From positions 3,043,001-3,107,000 of the forward strand of contig NZ_JACHNC010000001.1 of NCBI RefSeq assembly GCF_014205215.1: a stretch of 64,000 nucleotides of DNA. Direction: 5' to 3'. The position numbers and the translations under genes are program-made. The stretch comes from Actinoplanes lobatus (GTDB taxonomy: Bacteria; Actinomycetota; Actinomycetes; Mycobacteriales; Micromonosporaceae). Positions 40,307 through 48,922 of this stretch are shown piece after piece (position 1 is the stretch's first letter; each line of letters opens with the position of its first letter). The notes below the pieces were generated by a model. The model was not told the origin of the DNA. It ran no database searches and was given only the letters and a program-made list of their open reading frames with translations.

Positions 40307-40606
40307 ATGCGACTTGCCCGGATCTCCCTCGTGCCGCGTCCCGGTGCGCCGGCCGCCGTCGACGCGGTGGTGCTGGTGGACGCCACCTGGGCGGCCGCGC
40401 GGGCCGGGGACGAGGTTGAGCACGTGGTGGCCCGGGCGGTTCCGGGCGGCTTCGAGGTCGGGGTGTTCCTCCAGGCGGCCGACGGCCCGGCCGGGCGCGC
40501 CACCGCGGACGCGCTGATGCGGCGGGTGCTCGGCAATTCGCCGATGCTGCGGCAGTGGCGGATCGTGGCCGGCTCCGACATCCCGTTCGACAGTCTGCGA
40601 CATTGA
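40307..40606 (+). CDS. Small hypothetical protein next to the LuxR regulator
   Basis: A 99-residue soluble protein that I do not recognise: alpha/beta-looking, with alternating strands (MRLARISLVPRPG, AVDAVVLVDATWAAA) and an acidic-hydrophobic middle (GDEVEHVVARAVPGGFEVGVFL). GGAAGAGG lies ~9 nt before the ATG; an in-frame ATG at 40271 would add 12 residues. It sits 94 bp before the regulator gene on the same strand and may belong to the biosynthetic locus. Confidence 0.5.
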   Translation: MRLARISLVPRPGAPAAVDAVVLVDATWAAARAGDEVEHVVARAVPGGFEVGVFLQAADGPAGRATADALMRRVLGNSPMLRQWRIVAGSDIPFDSLRH

Positions 40607-40700: not shown

Positions 40701-41678
40701 ATGCTTGATGTGCTGGGCCTGGGTAGCGAAGCCGAGTCGGTCTACCGCCTTCTGCTGGCCCACCCGCGATGGGGGGTCCGTGACCTCGTCGAGCATCTGG
40801 CCGCCGACGAGGACACCGTCCGCGGGGCACTCGACCAGCTCTTCGATCTGGCGCTGCTGTGCCCCTCCGCGGAACGCGAGGGCGAGCTGCGGGCGGTCAG
40901 CCCCACCGTCGGCCTCCAGTCGCTGCTGGCCCGCCAGCAGGCCGACGTCGAGCACCGCCTCCGGCGGATCGCCGCGGGGCAGGCCGCGGTGGCCGCGATC
41001 CTCGCCGAGTACAGCGACCGGGCCGCCGCCGAGGAGGCGCCCGAGGCGGAGCGCGTGATCGGGCCGGACGCGATCCAGAGCCGGCTGGAGGAGCTGGCCC
41101 AGACGCTGCGGGAGGAACTGCTCAGCATCGTGCCGTCGGTGCCGTCGGTGGCGGCCGCCGAGACGGCCCGGCGGCACAACGCCGAGCTGGTGGCCCGCGG
41201 GATCACCATCCGGACGACGTTGCGGGACTCGGCCCGCCGGGATCCGGTCGCCGCCGAGTACGCGAAGTCCCTGACCGACGTCGGCGCCGAGGTGCGTACC
41301 GCGCCGCTGCTCCCGCCGCGCATGCTGATCTTCGACCGGGCGATCGCGATCGTCCCCATCGACCCCGGCCACACCGCACAGGGCGTCCTGCAGCTCTCCG
41401 GCCTGGGCGTGGTGGCCTCGCTGGTCACCCTGCACGAGCAGGTGTGGCGGACCGCCGTCCCGCTCGGCGCCGTCGCGCGCGACAGCGACGGCATCACGCC
41501 GATCCAGCGTGAGCTGCTGCAACTGCTCGCCCAGGGGCACACCGACAGTTCCGCGGCCACCCGTCTCGGCCTGTCCGAGCGCACCTGCCGCCGGGCCATG
41601 GCGGAGCTGATGGAGCGGCTCGGCGCGCGTAGCCGCTTCGAGGCCGGCCTGCTGGCCGCCCGCGAGGGCTGGATCTAG
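40701..41678 (+). CDS. TrmB/LuxR-type transcriptional regulator
   Basis: A 325-residue regulator. The N-terminal ~70 residues form a TrmB-like winged helix (AESVYRLLLAHPRWGVRDLV), then a helical linker, then a middle domain of phospholipase D-like shape common in this group (DSARRDPVAAEYAKSL). The last ~65 residues are a LuxR-type helix-turn-helix (LLQLLAQGHTDSSAATRLGL). A TAGATT box (40689-40694) 6 nt before the ATG gives a leaderless mRNA. It precedes the seven-gene operon by 145 bp in the same direction and probably controls it. Confidence 0.8.
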   Translation: MLDVLGLGSEAESVYRLLLAHPRWGVRDLVEHLAADEDTVRGALDQLFDLALLCPSAEREGELRAVSPTVGLQSLLARQQADVEHRLRRIAAGQAAVAAILAEYSDRAAAEEAPEAERVIGPDAIQSRLEELAQTLREELLSIVPSVPSVAAAETARRHNAELVARGITIRTTLRDSARRDPVAAEYAKSLTDVGAEVRTAPLLPPRMLIFDRAIAIVPIDPGHTAQGVLQLSGLGVVASLVTLHEQVWRTAVPLGAVARDSDGITPIQRELLQLLAQGHTDSSAATRLGLSERTCRRAMAELMERLGARSRFEAGLLAAREGWI

Positions 41679-41823: not shown

Positions 41824-41964
41824 ATGTCTTTTTCGGTCGCTCGCCTTGCGCTTGTCGTCTCCATTCTCGCTCTCGCCGCCACCATTGTCCTGCTGGCGAC
41901 CGGAGCCGGATATGAGCAGCTCACCACCGCTTCGGCGGCCGACACCGGCCTGATCTGGGGCTGA
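41824..41964 (+). CDS. 46-residue membrane peptide, first gene of operon
   Basis: Sequence features: a short polar N-terminus (MSFSVAR), a hydrophobic helix (LALVVSILALAATIVLLATG) and a C-terminal tail that contains GYEQLTTASAADTG and ends LIWG. GGGGG stands 7 nt before the ATG. Its stop lies 5 nt before the permease ATG, so the permease ribosome site is inside this gene and the two are coupled. It may be a small subunit of the permease, a membrane-tethered signal, or a precursor peptide. No modification enzyme of a known RiPP class is nearby, which argues against the last. Confidence 0.5.
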   Translation: MSFSVARLALVVSILALAATIVLLATGAGYEQLTTASAADTGLIWG

Positions 41965-41969
41965 CCGGA

Positions 41970-43160
41970 ATGGCTCAGAACGCTCTGGCCGAGCGGCAGT
42001 GGTCGGTCGGTCAACTGACACAGATGTACGTTTCCAGCGTCCTCGGCGCGGGAATCCTGGTGGTGCCGGGAATCTCCGTCCAGGAGGCCGGCTGGGCCGC
42101 CCCGCTCGTGTGGGTCGTGCTCGCCGGGATCTGCGTCTGTATCGCCCAGATGTTCGCCCGCATCTCGATGGAGTTCCCCCGGGTCTCCGGCATCACCGAC
42201 GTCATCGGCTCCGGCATGGGCTCCGCGAACGCCGCCATCGCGCAGGGTCTGCTGTTGGTGGTCTACGCGGTCGGGAACCCGGCCATGGCCATCGCCACCG
42301 CCCACTACCTGGAGGCGCTGACGGACCGGCTGCCCCCGGTGCCGGTCACCGCCATGGCGCTGATGCTGCTGTCCCTGGCACTGGCCGGGCTCAGTGACCG
42401 GGCCATCGCCCGGATCCAGGACGTCAGCATCAAGATCGCGCTGGTCGCCCTGGGGGTCAGCATCGTCCTCGCCGTGCCCGGCATGGACCTGGCCAACCTC
42501 GGCCGGCAGGGCTCCACGTCGGTGGCCGGTGTGCTGACCGCCGCGGGCGTCGCCTTCTACGCCTACCTGGGCTGGGAGAACGTCTCCCTGCTGGGCGGCT
42601 CGGTGCGGGACCCGCGGCACACCTTCCCCCGGGCGATCCGGCGCGCCGTACCGCTGGTCGCCCTGACCTACCTGGCCGCCACCGTCGCCTACGCGGCCCT
42701 GCCGCCCGGCGGGCCCACCGCGCTGGTGCCCGCCCTGACCGCCGGTCTGCCGGCGCCTCTGCGCCTGGTCCTGCTGGCCTCGTCCGCCGTCGCGATCATC
42801 GCGGCGACCAACGCGTGGGTGCTCGGCGCCACCCGGCTGTACGTGCACGCCGTCCGGGGCCGGACCTCCGAGTCGCGCGCCAAGATCGTGCTGGCTTGCG
42901 CGTACGCCGGCACGCTGGCCCTCTTCGGCGCCGGGATCGTCACCCACTCCGACCTCCTCGCCTGGACATCGGCGCTGTTCATGTCCGTCTACGCGCTGTG
43001 CAGCGCCGCCCTCGCGCGGTTGCAGCGGAGGTGGAGCGTCCAGGCCGTCGTCGTCCTGCTCAGCAGCCTGGTGATCCTCGGATCGCGGGGCATCGCGGGA
43101 CTGCTCTTCGTCTGTGTCCTCGTCGTGGTGGTCCTGGCCACCGGAAAGGTACGGAAATGA
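41970..43160 (+). CDS. APC-family amino acid permease
   Basis: A 396-residue permease with about eleven or twelve transmembrane helices. The N-terminal YVSSVLGAGILVVPG is the APC substrate-backbone-binding loop in TM1, and GVAFYAYLGWENVSLLGGSV is the TM6 region. It may import an amino-acid precursor or export the product. The ATG overlaps no gene upstream but follows the 46-residue peptide by 5 nt, and its stop overlaps the cupin start (ATGA). Confidence 0.88.
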   Translation: MAQNALAERQWSVGQLTQMYVSSVLGAGILVVPGISVQEAGWAAPLVWVVLAGICVCIAQMFARISMEFPRVSGITDVIGSGMGSANAAIAQGLLLVVYAVGNPAMAIATAHYLEALTDRLPPVPVTAMALMLLSLALAGLSDRAIARIQDVSIKIALVALGVSIVLAVPGMDLANLGRQGSTSVAGVLTAAGVAFYAYLGWENVSLLGGSVRDPRHTFPRAIRRAVPLVALTYLAATVAYAALPPGGPTALVPALTAGLPAPLRLVLLASSAVAIIAATNAWVLGATRLYVHAVRGRTSESRAKIVLACAYAGTLALFGAGIVTHSDLLAWTSALFMSVYALCSAALARLQRRWSVQAVVVLLSSLVILGSRGIAGLLFVCVLVVVVLATGKVRK

Positions 43161-43504
43161 CCGCCCTGCGCCATATGGCCACGCTGTCCGAGGAATCGGC
43201 GGACGGCGAGTTCGGAACCCGGTGCCAGCGGGTCTTCCCCCTGAACCTCATCGACGACGAGACGCTCGGCGCGATGGGCTGCTGGCTGGAGCCCGGCCGG
43301 CAGACCGAGCCGGACCAGCACGACCAGCGCGAGATGGTGTTCGTCACCGGCGGCCGCGGGACCCTCGTCTCGGGCGCCGAGTCCACCCCGCTGCGCGCCG
43401 GCGACGTCGTCTTCATCGAGAAGAACCACGAGCACGTCGTGCACTGCACCGACGAGCCGCTCACCTGGTTCTCCGTCTACTGGCCCCTGAAGGAGACCCG
43501 ATGA
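43157..43504 (+). CDS. Stand-alone cupin (hydrazine-synthetase cupin part)
   Basis: A 115-residue single cupin. Motif 1 has His55 and Glu59 (DQHDQREMVFVTGG), and motif 2 has His91/His93 (GDVVFIEKNHEHVVH), so a metal site is likely. In known hydrazine synthetases a cupin of this type is fused to a MetRS-like domain and completes N-N bond formation. Here it is a separate gene overlapping the MetRS-like gene by 4 bp (ATGA), so the two products probably form a complex. A general sugar or storage cupin is unlikely in this context. Confidence 0.82.
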   Translation: MTALRHMATLSEESADGEFGTRCQRVFPLNLIDDETLGAMGCWLEPGRQTEPDQHDQREMVFVTGGRGTLVSGAESTPLRAGDVVFIEKNHEHVVHCTDEPLTWFSVYWPLKETR

Positions 43505-44982
43505 CCACCTGGATCACGGCGACGCCCCCGACGCCGAACGGACACCTGCACGTGGGTCACATCTCCGGGCCGTACCTGGCCGGCGACGTGATGGCCCGGG
43601 CGCTGGCCGCGGACGGGCAGGACACCTGGTACTCCACCGGCCTCGACGACAACCAGACGTACGTGCCGCGCCGTTCCTGGGGGGAGGGCGGCACGCCCGA
43701 GGAGACGGCGGAGCGGTACACCCGCTCGATCGTCGACACCTGGGCCGCGGCCGGCGTGCGGTTCGACGCGATCGTGCGACCGCACGGGATCGAGTACGAG
43801 TCCCGCGTACGAAATCTGTTCTCGCTGTTGATCGAAAGCGGTCACGTGGTGGCCCAGGAGCGGCCGCTGCCGTTCTGCGAGCCCTGCGACCTCTGGCTGT
43901 ACGAGGCCTACCTGGGCGGGAAGTGCCCCCACTGCGGGGCCGGCACCAACGGCAACGCCTGTGAGGACTGTTGCCGGCCCAACGTCTGCGCCGACGTCGC
44001 CGACCCGTTCTGCATCCGCTGCGGCTCGACCCCGGAGGTACGGCAGACCAAGCTGCACGTGCTGCCGCTGGAACCGCTGCGGGACCGGCTCGTGGAGTTC
44101 TGGGCGTCCTGCGACATGCCCGAGCGGCTGCGCGCCGTCTGCCGGGCGATGGCGGCCGAGCGCCTGCCCGACATCCTCGTCTCGCACCCGTCGGACTGGG
44201 GCATCCCCACCGCGGAGGATCCGGCGCTGCGCACCTACGTGTGGCTGGAGATGGCCGAGGGGTACGCCGCCGAGGCGCCGCCCGCCGGACACGACCGGCT
44301 CGTGCAGTTCTTCGGCATCGACAACGGCTACTTCCACGCGGTCCTCTTCCCGGCCGTGAACCTGGCGCTGGGCCGGGCGGAACTGCTGCCGGAGAAGTTC
44401 GTCGTCAACGAGTTCTTCCAGCTGAACGGCTCCAAGTTCTCCACCAGCCGGCGGCACGCCATCTGGGCGTCCGAGCTGCTCCCGGTCGTCGGGGCGGACC
44501 TGCTGCGCCTGCACTGCCTGCTCCGGCGGCCGGCGACCAGCCGGACCGACTTCACCCTGGACGACCTCAGCCGTACCGAAAAGGTGCTGGACGCCTGGGA
44601 CGCCACCTTCCGCGGGGTGTTCGCCCTGGACGGTGCCGCGACCACCGTGGACGAGGCCGCTCTCCCGGCCGACCTGCGGCGCAGCGGACGTGCCGTACGG
44701 GCGCAGCTGGACCTGGCCCGCGCGTTCTGCCGGCCGGACGACTTCGACCCGCCGGCCGCGGTCGAGCAGCTGATGTCCGCCGCCCGGGTGATCGGGTCGG
44801 CGCTCGACGAGGTGCGCGCCATGGGACCCGAGGGGGCCGCCGCGGCCGCCGCCCTGCGGGCCTGGACCGCCGAGTTCGCCGAGGCCGCCGCCCCGGTCGT
44901 GCCGGACGGCAGCGCGTACCTCCGGCAGGCGTGCTCCGGGACCGGGCGCCCGGCCAGGTACTTCGGGCTGGGCGTGGGATGA
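43501..44982 (+). CDS. Methionyl-tRNA-synthetase-like enzyme (hydrazine-synthetase ligase part)
   Basis: A 493-residue class I aminoacyl-tRNA-synthetase-like protein. The HIGH motif is HVGH (17-20) and the KMSKS loop is KFSTS (312-316). A four-knuckle zinc region has CxxC pairs at 126/129, 142/145, 154/157 and 171/174. The anticodon-binding tail is short and there is no C-terminal tRNA-binding domain. Placed between a cupin and two flavoenzymes, it is unlikely to be housekeeping MetRS. In hydrazine synthetases this domain uses ATP to join an amino acid to an N-hydroxylated amine. Confidence 0.85.
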   Translation: MTTWITATPPTPNGHLHVGHISGPYLAGDVMARALAADGQDTWYSTGLDDNQTYVPRRSWGEGGTPEETAERYTRSIVDTWAAAGVRFDAIVRPHGIEYESRVRNLFSLLIESGHVVAQERPLPFCEPCDLWLYEAYLGGKCPHCGAGTNGNACEDCCRPNVCADVADPFCIRCGSTPEVRQTKLHVLPLEPLRDRLVEFWASCDMPERLRAVCRAMAAERLPDILVSHPSDWGIPTAEDPALRTYVWLEMAEGYAAEAPPAGHDRLVQFFGIDNGYFHAVLFPAVNLALGRAELLPEKFVVNEFFQLNGSKFSTSRRHAIWASELLPVVGADLLRLHCLLRRPATSRTDFTLDDLSRTEKVLDAWDATFRGVFALDGAATTVDEAALPADLRRSGRAVRAQLDLARAFCRPDDFDPPAAVEQLMSAARVIGSALDEVRAMGPEGAAAAAALRAWTAEFAEAAAPVVPDGSAYLRQACSGTGRPARYFGLGVG

Positions 44983-45785
44983 GCACCGCAGGCCGTCTCG
45001 CGGTCGTCGCGCCCCGCACCGGCCCGCGGGCCCGCTGGGGAAGGCTCTTTCCCCCGGCGCTGCTGGAGCATCCGGCGGTGGAGGTCTTCGACGACGCCGC
45101 GGATCCCGAGCGCTCTGTCGCCATCGCCCGGCGCATCGCCGGATCGGCCGGCTACTCGGCCGTGGTGGGGCACTTCTCCAGCGAGGCGGCCGGTGGCGCG
45201 CTGACCGCCTACCGGTGGGCCGGCATCCCGGTGGCCTTCCCGCTCTCCTCGGCGCCGGAGATCACCCGCGAACACCTGGACCCGGACCCGGGGGTGATCG
45301 CCCCTATGCCGGACAACCTGGCGCAGGCCGCCGTGCTGTTCCGGGCGTACCGGCCCGCGGAGGCGTGGGCCGGGCCCTCGGCCGACGGGCTCGCCGGCGC
45401 GTGGGAGCTCCTGGGCGGCCGGGTCCGGCCCAGCGTGCGGGAGATCCTCCAGCAGCCCGGCGCCGGCACGCTGGTGGTCCTGGGCACCCTGACCGACGCG
45501 GAGGAGGCGATGCGGGCCGTCGCCGAGGACGGCCGGGAGGTACACGTGGCACTCACCGACGACAGCTGGGTGGGCTCACCGGACTGGGACGAGCTGCCGC
45601 CGGGCGAACGGCCGCGGGTCGTCACCTCCCGGCCCGACCCGGCGGTCCTCGTCGACCGCTGCGCCCGGCACATGCTCGAGGCCGTCGAGCGTGACCTCAC
45701 CGGCCCGGAGCTGGTCACCCTGTGGGCGGAGCGGTACGGCGTACCGGTCTGGGAACAGCCGCGCCCGGTGGAGGTGCTCCGGTGA
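44979..45785 (+). CDS. Cytosolic periplasmic-binding-protein-like protein
   Basis: A 268-residue protein with type 1 periplasmic-binding-protein features. The segment SVAIARRIAGSAGYSAVVGHF, then SEAAGGALTAYRWAGIPVAF and SSAPEIT, matches the ligand-cleft region of branched-chain amino acid receptors (LivJ-like). It lacks a signal peptide and is shorter than a full receptor, so it should act in the cytosol. It overlaps both neighbours by 4 bp (ATGA, GTGA), so it is integral to the operon. It could bind an amino-acid intermediate or have become an enzyme. I know of no such component in described hydrazine pathways. Confidence 0.7.
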   Translation: MSTAGRLAVVAPRTGPRARWGRLFPPALLEHPAVEVFDDAADPERSVAIARRIAGSAGYSAVVGHFSSEAAGGALTAYRWAGIPVAFPLSSAPEITREHLDPDPGVIAPMPDNLAQAAVLFRAYRPAEAWAGPSADGLAGAWELLGGRVRPSVREILQQPGAGTLVVLGTLTDAEEAMRAVAEDGREVHVALTDDSWVGSPDWDELPPGERPRVVTSRPDPAVLVDRCARHMLEAVERDLTGPELVTLWAERYGVPVWEQPRPVEVLR

Positions 45786-46867
45786 CGACCGTGGACTGTG
45801 CCGTCATCGGCGACGGCGTCGTCGGCCGTTTCACCGCGCTGGCGCTCGCCGCCCGGGGACTGCTGGTGAGTCTCAGCGGCGAGGACGCCGGCTCGTCGGC
45901 CTCGGCCCTCAGCGGGGGACTGGTCCGCGCCTACTCCGCCGATCCGTTCCTGACCCGGCTCGCGGCACGCAGCCTGACCTCGGTGTGGCTGAACTGCCCG
46001 GCCTACCGGCGGACCGGTTCGGTGCACGTGGTGCCGCGGGCCGGGCTGGACCGGGCGGTGCTGTCCGAGATGGCGGCCGCCGGGGTGCCGTACCGGGTGA
46101 TCGGCGGACCGGCCCGGCACCCGGTCCGGCTGGAGCGGGGCGACTGCGCCGTCGTCGAGCCGTACGGCGGTTTCGTCCATGCCGGCGAGGCGCTGCGCTG
46201 GCTCGCGGACCGGTGCCGGGACGACGCCGCGATCACCCGGACCGGCCCGGTCCGCCAGGTGATCACCCACGGCGACGGCTTCTCGCTGGTCGGCACGGGC
46301 CCGGCGGTACGGGCCCGCCAGGTGATCGTGACCGCCGGACCGGGCACCGCCGCGCTCCTGCCGCCCGGATCGGCCCCCGAGGTGGAGCGACGGCGGATCG
46401 TCTACTCCTTCGTCCGCCTCGGCGACTCCGGCGCGGTGCCGCACACGCTCGTGGACACCGTCCCCGACACCTGGATGCGCCCCGCGCCCGAGCAGGGCCC
46501 CGGCGTCCTCCTGGTCGGCCGGGCCGACCCGATGCCCTGGAACCGGCCCGGCCGGCGGGACGTCACCGACCGGCGGACCGGACTGCGGGCGGCGGAGGCC
46601 CTGGCCCGGCGGATACCGGCCCTGTCCAAGGCCGAGTACCTGAGCAGCGTCGTCGCGTCCGACATGTACGCGACACCGGGACACCACGGCGACGTGCCGG
46701 CGCCGACGGCCACCGACGGCCTCTGGTACGTGACCGGCCTCTCCGGGGGTGGTTTCAAGATCGCGCCCGCGCTGGGCGAGCGGATCGCCGACCGGATGAC
46801 GGCGAGCGACAACGACGTCGCGCAGACCCTGTACAGCAACGACGTCGAGGGTGGGGACCATGTTTGA
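45782..46867 (+). CDS. DAO-type FAD-dependent amine/amino acid oxidase
   Basis: A 361-residue flavoenzyme of the D-amino acid/glycine oxidase family. Rossmann motif GDGVVGR (10-16), a VIVTAGPGTAALL segment and the C-terminal GLWYVTGLSGGGFKIAPAL FAD loop are present. In the s56-p1-type pathway a homologous oxidase cleaves the lysine-glycine hydrazine intermediate to release hydrazinoacetate. The GTG at 45782 overlaps the preceding stop (GTGA) and is preferred to the upstream open frame. Confidence 0.85.
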   Translation: MTTVDCAVIGDGVVGRFTALALAARGLLVSLSGEDAGSSASALSGGLVRAYSADPFLTRLAARSLTSVWLNCPAYRRTGSVHVVPRAGLDRAVLSEMAAAGVPYRVIGGPARHPVRLERGDCAVVEPYGGFVHAGEALRWLADRCRDDAAITRTGPVRQVITHGDGFSLVGTGPAVRARQVIVTAGPGTAALLPPGSAPEVERRRIVYSFVRLGDSGAVPHTLVDTVPDTWMRPAPEQGPGVLLVGRADPMPWNRPGRRDVTDRRTGLRAAEALARRIPALSKAEYLSSVVASDMYATPGHHGDVPAPTATDGLWYVTGLSGGGFKIAPALGERIADRMTASDNDVAQTLYSNDVEGGDHV

Positions 46868-48119
46868 TCGCGATCTTGTCGGTGTGGGCCTCGGCCCGGC
46901 GAACCTGGGTCTGGCCATCGCACTGGAGGAGGCCGGGACTCCGGCCCGGGCGCAGTTCCTCGACCGCCGTCCCGGGTTCGACTGGCATCCGGAGATGCTG
47001 CTGCCCTCCTCCGTCATGCAGATCAGCTACCTCAAGGACCTCGCCACCCAGCGGGACCCGCGCAGCGCCTACACCTTCGTGAACTACCTGCACGAGCGCG
47101 GCCGGATGAGCGACTTCATCAACCGCAAGTCGTTCTTCCCCAGCCGTCTCGAGTTCACCGACTACCTGCGGTGGGCCGTGGAGCGGCTCCAGGTCCCGGT
47201 GTGCTGGGGTGCCGAGGTGGTCTCCGTCGACCTGGACGAGCGCACCGGCGGCTGCGCCGTGTCCTGGGACCTGGACGGCGCCCGGCACACCACCACGACC
47301 CGGTACGTCGCGATCGGCGCCGGCTCGACACCCCGGATGCCGGACTGGGCCGCGGCGTTGCCGGGTGTCCTCCACAACACCGGGCTCATCGGCGGCCTGC
47401 GGTCCGCGGGCCTCGGCAGAGGAGCCCGGGTGGCCGTCGCCGGGCAGGGGCAGAGCGCTGCCGAGGCGGTACGGCACGTCCTCGACACCTACCCCGGCGC
47501 GTCGGTCGACTGCTACCTGTCCGGGTACGGGATGACGCCCGCCGACTCCAGCCCGTTCGCGAACCGGGTCTTCGATCCCGCCGCCGTGGACGACTTCTAC
47601 TTCGCCGACGCCAACGTCCGCGCCGAGCTGCTCGACCGGCACCGGGCCACCAACTACAGCTGCGTCGACCCGGAGCTGCTCACCTGGCTCTACGACTTCG
47701 AGTACCAGGAGAAGGTGGCCGGCGGGGACCGGCTGCGCTTCCACCGGGCGGCCCGCATCACCAGCGCTCGCGCGTCCGGTGGCCGGATCACGCTGGACGT
47801 CCTGCGCCGGATGACCGGGACGACCGCGCGGGAGACGTACGACGCGGTCGTCTGCGCCACCGGGTTCACCTCGCCGCTGCCCCGGAAGCTGCTCGGCGGC
47901 TCCTTCGGCGACACCTCCGACGTCTGGCTGGCCCGCGACTACCGCCTGCACCGGGCGGACGGGTCGGCGCTGCCGGTCTTCGTGCTGGGCTCCACCGAGT
48001 CCGGGCACGGACTGGGCTCGGGGCTGCTCTCGAACATCGCCGTCCGTGGTGGCGAGATCGCCGGCCAGGTCATCGCGTCGGCGCGGGCTCCACGCCGCGA
48101 ACTCGCCGTCATCCGCTGA
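46860..48119 (+). CDS. Lysine/ornithine N-hydroxylase-family flavoenzyme
   Basis: A 419-residue enzyme of the IucD/PvdA/SidA family, which hydroxylates the side-chain amine of lysine or ornithine using FAD, NADPH and O2. The FAD motif is GVGLGPANLGLA near the N-terminus, the NADPH motif GQGQSAAEA at ~195, and ATGFTSPLPR near the C-terminus. ATG 46860 is used; it overlaps the oxidase stop by 8 bp. It should supply the N-hydroxy substrate of the cupin/MetRS-like pair. A hydroxamate siderophore role is less likely as no NRPS or IucA/C gene is nearby. Confidence 0.9.
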   Translation: MFDRDLVGVGLGPANLGLAIALEEAGTPARAQFLDRRPGFDWHPEMLLPSSVMQISYLKDLATQRDPRSAYTFVNYLHERGRMSDFINRKSFFPSRLEFTDYLRWAVERLQVPVCWGAEVVSVDLDERTGGCAVSWDLDGARHTTTTRYVAIGAGSTPRMPDWAAALPGVLHNTGLIGGLRSAGLGRGARVAVAGQGQSAAEAVRHVLDTYPGASVDCYLSGYGMTPADSSPFANRVFDPAAVDDFYFADANVRAELLDRHRATNYSCVDPELLTWLYDFEYQEKVAGGDRLRFHRAARITSARASGGRITLDVLRRMTGTTARETYDAVVCATGFTSPLPRKLLGGSFGDTSDVWLARDYRLHRADGSALPVFVLGSTESGHGLGSGLLSNIAVRGGEIAGQVIASARAPRRELAVIR

Positions 48120-48121
48120 CG

Positions 48122-48151
48122 GAATGGGCCGGGCGCGCGCCCGGCCCATTC
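48122..48151. terminator. Terminator after the hydrazine-type operon
   Basis: A perfect 30-bp palindrome (15-bp arms, 48122-48136 and 48137-48151) begins 2 bp after the N-hydroxylase stop and ends at the stop of the convergent gene. It marks the right border of the operon. Confidence 0.8.
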
Positions 48152-48922
48152 TCAGGCGGACGGGTCGAAGGTGATGCCGGCCGGCATCGCCTCGGTGATC
48201 AGGCTGACGAAGTTGGCGTCCTTCAGGCCGAAGTTCGCGCTGCCGAAGTCGTAGTTGCTCAGCGTGGTGCGGATGCTGGTGGACGGGAAGCCGTTCCAGC
48301 CGACGAGAGCCGGGTACTGCCAGGCGGCGTACCCGTTCTCGGGCGGCTCGTCGCCGGTGCCGGCCAGGCGGAAGGTGTGCGTGCTGGCGCCGTCCTTGTG
48401 GTAGACGATCTTCGGGTGGTTGCCGGTCCAGCGGACGCTGCTCGCGGCGGAGATGGTGAAGTCGCCGTGCGCCGAGGTGGCGACGTACTTCGCCACGTCG
48501 TTCTGCACCCAGACCACGACGTGCTCCCAGTCGTGGCGGTGGCCGCCGATCGAGCTGTTCGCGAGCGCCTGGTCCTTCTCGAAGTAGAGGCCGTACGCGA
48601 CGGCGCACCACCCGTTGTTGCACTTGTAGCGCGAGTATCCGTTGGTGTTGTCCAGATCTGACGTGTCGTGGCAGTCGCCGCTGAGCGACCCGGCCGGTTT
48701 CAGGCCGCCGTTGACCGTGCCGGTCGGGCCGATCGCCGGGGTGGGGTAGCAGCCGTCGGTGTCGTAGTCGTACGCCGGCTGCCACTTGGTCTCGACCGCC
48801 TCGGCGTTGCCGGGCAGCTCGGTGGGAGGTGCGGCCAGCGCCGGTGCGGCGGTGGCGAGCAGTATCGCGAGGGCGGCACCGGCGACGACGGCGGTGCGCT
48901 GAGGGGCTCTGTCGGGGGCCAT
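48152..48922 (-). CDS. Secreted Nep1-like (NPP1 family) protein
   Basis: A 256-residue protein with a signal peptide (TAVVAGAALAILLATAAPALA) and the family heptapeptide GHRHDWE at 127-133. Four or more cysteines (DGCYPTP, SGDCHD, YKCNNGWC) suggest disulfides. Nep1-like proteins are cytolysins that bind plant sphingolipids; bacterial versions occur in plant-associated actinomycetes. Full length and an intact motif suggest activity. AAGGAG lies 8 nt before the ATG. It is convergent with the hydrazine-type operon. Confidence 0.9.
   Translation of the reverse strand: MAPDRAPQRTAVVAGAALAILLATAAPALAAPPTELPGNAEAVETKWQPAYDYDTDGCYPTPAIGPTGTVNGGLKPAGSLSGDCHDTSDLDNTNGYSRYKCNNGWCAVAYGLYFEKDQALANSSIGGHRHDWEHVVVWVQNDVAKYVATSAHGDFTISAASSVRWTGNHPKIVYHKDGASTHTFRLAGTGDEPPENGYAAWQYPALVGWNGFPSTSIRTTLSNYDFGSANFGLKDANFVSLITEAMPAGITFDPSA

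Follow-up and report, generated by a model that had tools for sequence, protein, structure and literature searches.

What might an operon with the gene set of N–N bond formation make, and why does it also encode a relative of nutrient-binding proteins? Both questions are raised by seven plus-strand open reading frames that fill positions 41824–48119 of a 64,000-nt stretch, here called the window, of the genome of the soil actinobacterium Actinoplanes lobatus. An initial annotation had described seven same-strand genes joined by overlaps of 4–8 bp or a 5-nt gap, and all of these reading frames and junctions were recovered (Table 1). The gap of 5 nt separates a 46-aa peptide from the permease, after which successive genes as far as the hydroxylase overlap by 4, 4, 4, 4 and 8 bp. 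Pfam searches concur with the protein identities given in that annotation, returning AA_permease, Cupin_2, tRNA-synt_1g, Peripla_BP_6, DAO and Lys_Orn_oxgnase across the operon; the peptide has no match, and the Peripla_BP_6 score (30.3 bits) lies slightly below the cut-off of 31.7. Apart from the permease, the operon proteins look soluble.

Table 1. Features of the operon and its upstream flank, in window coordinates.
Feature	Position	Strand	Basis
Protein of ~99 aa	40307..40606	+	No Pfam match; accompanies regulator
LuxR-type (GerE) regulator	40701..41678	+	Pfam GerE
46-aa hydrophobic peptide, doubtful gene	41824..41964	+	No Pfam match
APC-type amino-acid permease	41970..43160	+	Pfam AA_permease
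Zn-cupin, putative N–N-forming half of hydrazine synthetase	43157..43504	+	Cupin_2; PDB 5uqp among matches
MetRS-like ligase, putative other half of hydrazine synthetase	43501..44982	+	tRNA-synt_1g; motifs; tree
PBP-like protein lacking a signal peptide, proposed partner of oxidase in ligand binding	44979..45785	+	Peripla_BP_6
DAO-type FAD oxidase	45782..46867	+	Pfam DAO, 99.7 bits; oxidase tree
Remnant of deleted GNAT gene, translated as C-terminal tail of oxidase	46805..46867	+	Match to A. italicus GNAT
Flavin amino-acid N-hydroxylase	46860..48119	+	Lys_Orn_oxgnase
Perfect 30-bp palindrome at convergent junction	48122-48151	.	Probable two-way terminator

Conservation and boundaries of the operon

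The order permease, cupin, MetRS-like ligase, PBP-like protein, oxidase and hydroxylase is common to A. flavus, A. italicus and Cellulomonas avistercoris, the permease occupying the equivalent position in each (loci L001–L003). Because this order recurs in three other species, and because the six genes have dN/dS values of ~0.20–0.33 relative to A. flavus, it is judged on these sequence comparisons to be more than a product of chance. A strict sample of the phylum gave a match in 1 of 396 genomes, which was the source genome itself. The LuxR-type regulator upstream has counterparts in A. flavus (95%) and, inverted, in A. italicus (85%), with the ~99-aa protein adjoining it in both species, as an inverted pair in the latter; no match to the regulator was found in the Cellulomonas locus. 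Distant homologues of the regulator adjoin clusters L053 and L056, and the second of these, from Streptomyces, holds an APC permease 40% identical to that of the window. The claim that no PKS or NRPS genes lie adjacent holds for the scanned flanks, where none was found among 13 window proteins.

The 46-aa peptide is doubtful as a core partner, given a dN/dS of ~0.83 against A. flavus. Its start and its GLIWG end are conserved in A. flavus and A. italicus (where the start is at L002 8256), and a tblastn search of the Cellulomonas locus gave no match. The perfect 30-bp palindrome described at the end of the operon is present and is the sole perfect palindrome of at least 18 bp found in the window. 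It occupies the junction with a convergent downstream gene at 48152, folds as RNA with −41 kcal/mol (z −4.65) and is a probable two-way terminator. Its sequence is absent from the loci of all three relatives (L001–L003), which rules it out as a conserved element of the operon.

A probable split hydrazine synthetase and its N-hydroxylase

The matches of the cupin include PDB 5uqp (RHS1). Residues D53, H55, E59 and H93 of the cupin align with RHS1 D63, H65, E69 and H103, and these four residues are present in all ten cupins aligned with RHS1. RHS1 is described as a proven enzyme for which the four cupin residues are essential (PMC8664883). The adjoining ligase retains an HVGH motif at position 17 (HIGH), KFSTS at 312 and four CxxC pairs. 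A grouping with housekeeping or antibiotic-resistant MetRS, named in the initial annotation as the outcome that would speak against its reading, was not observed: the ligase clusters in the tree with other cupin-linked paralogues, its best metG model scores 218 bits (cut-off 553), and the genome encodes distinct MetRS genes elsewhere. Its pocket is unlike that of the glutamate-using enzyme of Rhodococcus jostii RHA1, whose glutamate-type residues are absent, and this comparison disfavours glutamate as the second substrate. Judged from these sequence features, the core of the operon is very probably a split hydrazine synthetase.

The hydroxylase residues K59, N235, N265 and S391 align with SidA K107, N293, N323 and S469, and the K, N, N, S set is conserved in 11 of the 12 rows of the alignment. 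The four residues are compatible with a diamino acid and do not discriminate among Lys, Orn and Dab; they do not settle the substrate because the RHA1 hydroxylase, reported to act on lysine, misses one of them in the alignment. Identity as a histamine N-monooxygenase was rejected (173 bits; cut-off 700). The initial reading of a hydrazine-unit operon is supported by the genes present and by active-site residues shared with cupin/MetRS hydrazine synthetases; the use of lysine and glycine, the formation of hydrazinoacetate and the release of a free small metabolite, which it had also proposed, did not gain such support.

Several described systems share parts of this arrangement. The RHA1 system, like the window, has a stand-alone Zn-cupin, a MetRS-like protein and an N-hydroxylase (PMC8664883), and the catalytic residues of RHS1 and the window cupin are identical. 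It differs in its use of glutamate and in a gene of saccharopine-dehydrogenase type (PMC8664883), as well as in the MetRS pocket, and the gene list of L021, used for this comparison, shows no counterpart of the PBP, oxidase or GNAT. The Spb38-40 (s56-p1) and NngKLM (N-nitroglycine) modules combine an N-hydroxylase, a cupin/MetRS synthetase and a DAO-type oxidase, and are described as making hydrazinoacetate; the cupin and MetRS parts are fused there and separate in the window, NngM bears an extra carrier domain, and the accounts of these modules mention no PBP partner (PMC11705231, PMC13274452). The likeness of the window to them is one of description rather than of Spb sequences. A C. flavigena synthetase appears in Table 2 of PMC11705231. 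Albofungin orfDEF and abf6 show the order cupin, tRNA synthetase and FAD oxidoreductase together with a lysine 6-monooxygenase, although in a polyketide pathway (PMC9469721). The neighbourhoods of MtRS paralogues described by Aravind et al. 2010 contain a cupin and a lysine 6-monooxygenase and in some cases GNAT, FAD oxidoreductase, PBP-superfamily proteins and Asn synthetase; the text treats the PBPs generally as peptide-binding proteins, and a fusion to the oxidase is not part of its description (PMC2922099).

A PBP-like protein linked to the oxidase

The PBP-like protein shows no signal peptide, its N-terminus matching the chain starts of SBPs in the PDB at residue 3–4, and no ABC permease or ATPase genes occur within the operon. 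Its residues S68, S91 and D195 align with S79, T102 and D226 of Atu2422, positions of the amino-acid site in Leu- and GABA-binding proteins, and the three (S; S or T; D) are present in 112 of 112 PBPs of the pathway. Leu/Ile/Val-binding proteins and Atu2422 (PDB 2lbp, 3ip5) match it by profile with E ~1e-10 and share these conserved positions; compared with them, however, the window protein is ~80–90 residues shorter and without signal peptide or operon ABC genes, and its relatives, unlike those proteins, are fused to the oxidase. Such fusion was seen in 100 of 102 actinobacterial relatives by precomputed Pfam assignments, and the PBP adjoins the MetRS in all six strong loci from 295 Streptomyces genomes. 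In L055 the two parts are separate, overlapping genes, and the L055 PBP clusters among the fused ones. Less favourable are the oxidase tree, in which the group of PBP-linked oxidases has a low support of 47/43, and the MetRS tree, on which the PBP label changes 12 times, a count that derives partly from rows of unlabelled status. One relative's PBP is annotated as an 'ABC transporter substrate-binding protein'. Taken from these sequence relationships, the PBP-like protein looks like a cytosolic ligand-binding partner of the oxidase and not part of a transporter. No PBP was found in 23 of 28 related loci within the stretch examined around each, and it is therefore dispensable for hydrazine synthesis in general.

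A lost acetyltransferase

In A. italicus and Cellulomonas a GNAT acetyltransferase gene sits between the oxidase and hydroxylase genes, and the last part of the window oxidase gene matches the GNAT gene of A. italicus at its 3′ end, in both protein and DNA. By this comparison the window operon has lost the GNAT gene, whose C-terminus persists as the tail of the oxidase. A. flavus likewise has the GNAT deleted. Two GNAT relatives lie elsewhere in the genome (49% at C1:5697956 and 34% at C1:3038222). Because their neighbouring genes are unlike those of the operon, they are likelier paralogues than the relocated gene. The GNAT of A. italicus and Cellulomonas possibly acetylates an alpha-hydrazino acid, by analogy with the hydrazinosuccinate N-acetyltransferases FzmQ and KinN, which set a precedent for such acetylation (PMC6133997). 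These act in a different, nitrite-derived N–N pathway, and the likeness is one of description; the corresponding gene is the one deleted in the window.

Alternative readings

A plain pathway of Spb38-40 type, in which lysine and glycine give free hydrazinoacetate and the PBP-like gene is an ordinary transport accessory, would agree with the enzyme kinds of spb38-40 and with the missing glutamate-type pocket residues. Neither Lys nor Gly is established as a substrate, however, and a PBP that has neither signal peptide nor ABC partners in its operon, and is oxidase-fused in its relatives, argues against the transport role; we regard this pathway as unlikely. A role for the PBP-like protein as sensor or regulator, rather than as oxidase partner, could be read from four stand-alone Streptomyces cousins, each encoded divergently from a gene homologous to the window's regulator, but all four have lost two of the three binding positions, and the oxidase fusion in 100 of 102 relatives makes such a role improbable.

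The enzymes themselves might be read otherwise. A siderophore-type hydroxamate operon, with N-hydroxylase and acetyltransferase yielding N-acyl-N-hydroxy-lysine and the MetRS-like protein acting as a peptide ligase, is suggested by the GNAT of two relatives and by the modified dipeptide proposed in Aravind 2010 (PMC2922099); with the GNAT gone from the window operon and the N–N-forming residues of RHS1 retained in its cupin, we think it highly improbable. We give almost no credence to a spare or drug-resistant methionyl-tRNA synthetase: the tRNA-synt_1g match is strong, but the score far under the metG cut-offs, the further MetRS genes, the position among cupin-linked paralogues and the conserved operon with cupin and hydroxylase all speak against it.

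Proposed pathway

We think it reasonably probable that the operon yields an N–N bonded amino-acid derivative in five steps, with the PBP-like protein as a holder. A diamino acid, in the likeliest case lysine or ornithine, would first be oxidised at its side-chain amine by the N-hydroxylase. The MetRS-like protein would then adenylate a second amino acid, probably small and not glutamate, and esterify it onto the hydroxylamine, and the Zn-cupin would rearrange the ester to a hydrazine conjugate. Cleavage of one C–N bond by the DAO-type oxidase would free a hydrazino acid. Docked on the oxidase, the PBP-like protein would bind either the conjugate or the freed hydrazino acid by its amino-acid end, holding the reactive intermediate without a covalent bond. 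The permease may transport substrate or product, and the acetylation step still encoded in relatives would be missing here. Family membership and conserved active sites are the basis of the first three steps, and gene fusions that of the oxidase–PBP link; we infer the substrates, the bond cut by the oxidase and the PBP ligand.

A broader proposal, possible though rather doubtful, is that throughout this branch of hydrazine pathways a cytosolic SBP fold, either fused to the oxidase or docked on it, serves as a dedicated carrier that binds non-covalently and passes a reactive hydrazino acid to the next enzyme or exporter in place of a covalent carrier domain (as in azaserine-type synthetases). 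With the acetyltransferase lost in the window lineage, the unmasked hydrazino acid may then be the product.

Significance

The operon is of a known kind, and its new part is the PBP-like gene. It very probably belongs to a little-described branch of hydrazine systems whose oxidase has an intracellular partner related to nutrient-binding proteins. Gene fusions connect this annotated but unexplained gene to a step of hydrazine biosynthesis, and the PBP–oxidase fusions define a recognisable branch of N–N-forming clusters in Streptomyces, Kitasatospora, Actinosynnema, Cellulomonas, Actinoplanes and others. The scar of the GNAT deletion sets up a natural experiment, in that neighbouring species would be expected to differ in whether they acetylate one shared product.

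A predicted split hydrazine synthetase in a conserved operon

The seven ORFs of the initial annotation, their overlaps and the palindrome that follows them were all borne out on re-reading the sequence. The gene identities were likewise recovered by Pfam (AA_permease, Cupin_2, tRNA-synt_1g, Peripla_BP_6, DAO and Lys_Orn_oxgnase), with the PBP-like protein reaching 30.3 bits against Peripla_BP_6, below the cut-off of 31.7, and the 46-aa peptide giving no Pfam match. The host genome comprises 10.4 Mb in two contigs. A common order of permease, cupin, MetRS, PBP, oxidase, an optional GNAT acetyltransferase and hydroxylase is found in Actinoplanes flavus NEAU-H7 (L001), A. italicus (L002) and Cellulomonas avistercoris Sa3CUA2 (L003), whose MetRS-like proteins are 97%, 84% and 59% identical, respectively, to that of the window. 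By a simple Nei–Gojobori count against A. flavus, dN/dS is 0.20–0.33 for six genes and 0.83 for the 46-aa peptide. The upstream regulator and its small neighbour also adjoin the operon in A. flavus and, inverted together, in A. italicus; neither the regulator nor the peptide had a match in the Cellulomonas locus. The convergent NPP1 gene had no tblastn match in any of these three loci. The stated lack of adjacent PKS or NRPS genes held in a Pfam scan of 13 flanking window proteins; two AMP-binding proteins lie at 56.3–59.0 kb of the window, with unrelated genes in between.

Coordinates of flanking, acetyltransferase and related genes
Feature	Locus	Position	Strand	Remark
~99-aa protein, no Pfam match	window	40307-40606	+	upstream of operon
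LuxR-type regulator	window	40701-41678		upstream of operon
NPP1 (necrosis-inducing protein), strong Pfam match	window	48152-48922	-	convergent neighbour
GNAT	L002	13304-13789		between oxidase and hydroxylase
GNAT	L003	13384-13869		same position
MetRS-like gene	L020	8986-10574		spans two frames
Stand-alone PBP-like gene	L044	9026-9913		divergent to homologue of window's regulator
Stand-alone PBP-like gene	L045	9453-10265		divergent to homologue of window's regulator
Stand-alone PBP-like gene	L046	9209-10087		divergent to homologue of window's regulator
Stand-alone PBP-like gene	L047	9418-10224		divergent to homologue of window's regulator

The cupin and MetRS-like protein are a predicted split hydrazine synthetase, an enzyme pair that is already known (PMC11705231). 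Among the cupin's matches is PDB 5uqp (4e-5), the N–N-forming Zn-cupin RHS1 of Rhodococcus jostii RHA1, whose activity is abolished by alanine at D63, H65, E69 or H103 (Zhao et al. 2021, PMC8664883). These residues align with D53, H55, E59 and H93 of the window cupin and are kept in all 10 cupins aligned (window, L001–L003 and the further loci L020, L051–L053, L055 and L056, with the RHS1 sequence from plasmid pRHL1). The MetRS-like protein retains HVGH, KFSTS and four CxxC pairs in the alignment and scores at best 218 bits against metG models (cut-off 553); two other strong MetRS matches lie elsewhere in the same genome. In a 74-row MetRS tree it falls within a 10-row group (support 100/100) nested in a 55-row clade (99/96), the genome's own metG and the RHA1 row being long branches of unsure placement. 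The Arg residues in LAPRY and FERVF of the RHA1 MetRS are replaced by Gly and His in the window protein and, on this basis, the second substrate of the ligase is read as not glutamate. The best PDB matches of the hydroxylase are MbtG (Lys) and the trio KtzI, PvdA and SidA (Orn). Its residues K59, N235, N265 and S391 align with SidA K107, N293, N323 and S469, which we take to hold ornithine. The full set is retained by 11 of 12 aligned hydroxylases; only that of RHA1 (reported substrate lysine) is without the third residue in that alignment. These residues appear compatible with a diamino-acid substrate, be it Lys, Orn or Dab, which they do not tell apart.

The PBP-like protein as proposed partner of the oxidase

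From domain fusions we propose that the PBP-like protein is a partner of the DAO oxidase. Querying with the window protein matched six proteins including itself (8000 scored candidates out of 5.8 billion), and matches occur in 3 of the 67 genomes of the genus. On a plasmid of Streptomyces sp. NBC_01483 (L020, NZ_CP109439), cupin and MetRS genes are followed by a single 681-aa protein, the first part of which is PBP-like (tblastn 32.5%, 4e-14) and residues 308–654 of which are a DAO oxidase. A query with its residues 1–298 matched 102 proteins, 100 of which carry PF01266 in the same chain among their listed Pfam domains. At L055 the PBP and oxidase are two overlapping genes, and this PBP nevertheless groups with the fused ones.

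In P0145 and P0152 (2/102) the PBP-like domain is fused to PF12900 (Pyridox_ox_2) in place of the oxidase. The two-frame MetRS-like gene of L020 reflects either a frameshift or a sequencing error.

There are 21 longest-contig sizes shared between the 120 MetRS matches listed and the 102 PBP proteins, which suggests that the two share contigs. PBP matches occur in 12 of 295 Streptomyces genomes. The strong ones (5.3e-28 or better) lie at seven places, equivalent to six loci in five genomes, and a MetRS-like match is found within the 1.5-kb flank in 6/6 of these loci; seven other places are weaker, comprising four stand-alone PBPs and three apparent Liv-type ABC operons, as judged from gene calls alone. 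Common to the Streptomyces loci L020, L051, L053 and L055 are a hydroxylase, a second DAO and DHDPS-, rhaM-, HMGL- and HAD-like genes. Such genes adjoin the PBP-oxidase there, forming a larger shared Streptomyces cluster, with Pfam assigning DHDPS, DAO, Pyridox_ox_2 and Asn_synthase in L020 and HMGL, rhaM and HAD in L051, and gene-call likeness the kinds elsewhere. Closest in kind to the window is L056, with a regulator homologue, cupin, MetRS, PBP-oxidase, APC permease and hydroxylase.

As a control we used 28 hydrazine-synthetase-type MetRS loci found independently of the PBP (16 from 150 genomes and 12 further from 394). A PBP match is present at five, and there is none within ~1.5 kb per side (shorter at contig ends) at the other 23. 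Best-segment MetRS identity to the window is at least 53% in the former and at most 46% in the latter; since Streptomyces loci found via the PBP have values of 44–53%, MetRS identity alone cannot split the two kinds of locus. All 31 rows labelled as PBP-linked fall in the 55-row clade of the MetRS tree, where the label requires 12 changes, unlabelled rows signifying no information as opposed to absence (the Cellulomonas protein, P0003, is among these, and the label of P0002 was assigned by assumption). In a 37-row oxidase tree, one change suffices for the 27 PBP-linked rows (support only 47/43). Aravind et al. 2010 (PMC2922099) had already named, in the vicinity of such MetRS paralogues, GNATs, FAD oxidoreductases and proteins of the PBP superfamily; the PBP–oxidase fusion finds no mention in the open-licence texts covered.

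Apparent loss of an acetyltransferase

The A. italicus and Cellulomonas GNATs are 47% identical. The oxidases of the window and A. flavus end in SDNDVAQTLYSNDVEGGDHV; this tail matches GNAT SDNEVAQTLY and RNDLEGGDHV, with the intervening 17 residues (51 bp) missing, which argues for a GNAT deletion that left the 3' end of the gene to be read as the C-terminal tail of the oxidase. The loss would most simply date to the common ancestor of the window's lineage and A. flavus. The unusual 8-bp overlap with the hydroxylase in the window is the GNAT–hydroxylase overlap of L002 and L003. Among the matches listed, P0046 is a MetRS–GNAT fusion. There is a precedent for acetylation as a mask for hydrazino acids in FzmQ, which acetylates hydrazinosuccinate in fosfazinomycin biosynthesis (PMC6133997).

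A predicted amino-acid site in the PBP

A six-PBP profile matches amino-acid substrate-binding proteins (SBPs), best Atu2422 (3ip5, 1.1e-10) and also Leu-binding protein. The alignment begins at residue 3–4 of the SBP PDB chains, so the window PBP is predicted to be without a signal peptide. Its S68, S91 and D195 align with Atu2422 S79, T102 and D226, presumably ligand residues. Across 112 pathway PBP rows (window, L001–L003, database proteins P0122–P0126 and P0127–P0228, the latter cut to 420 residues, and L055), S68, D194 and D195 never vary; position 91 holds T in 102 rows and S in the other 10. In the stand-alone PBPs of L044–L047, from four Streptomyces genomes and with no hydrazine genes seen nearby, position 68 is R, T, P and P and position 91 is R, R, P and H, respectively, with Asp at position 195 in three of the four; on the changes at 68 and 91, the predicted amino-acid site is kept in pathway PBPs and lost in these. 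The spacing between the ends of hydrazinoacetate is the same as in beta-alanine, and hydrazinoacetate is the candidate ligand that we favour for the PBP.
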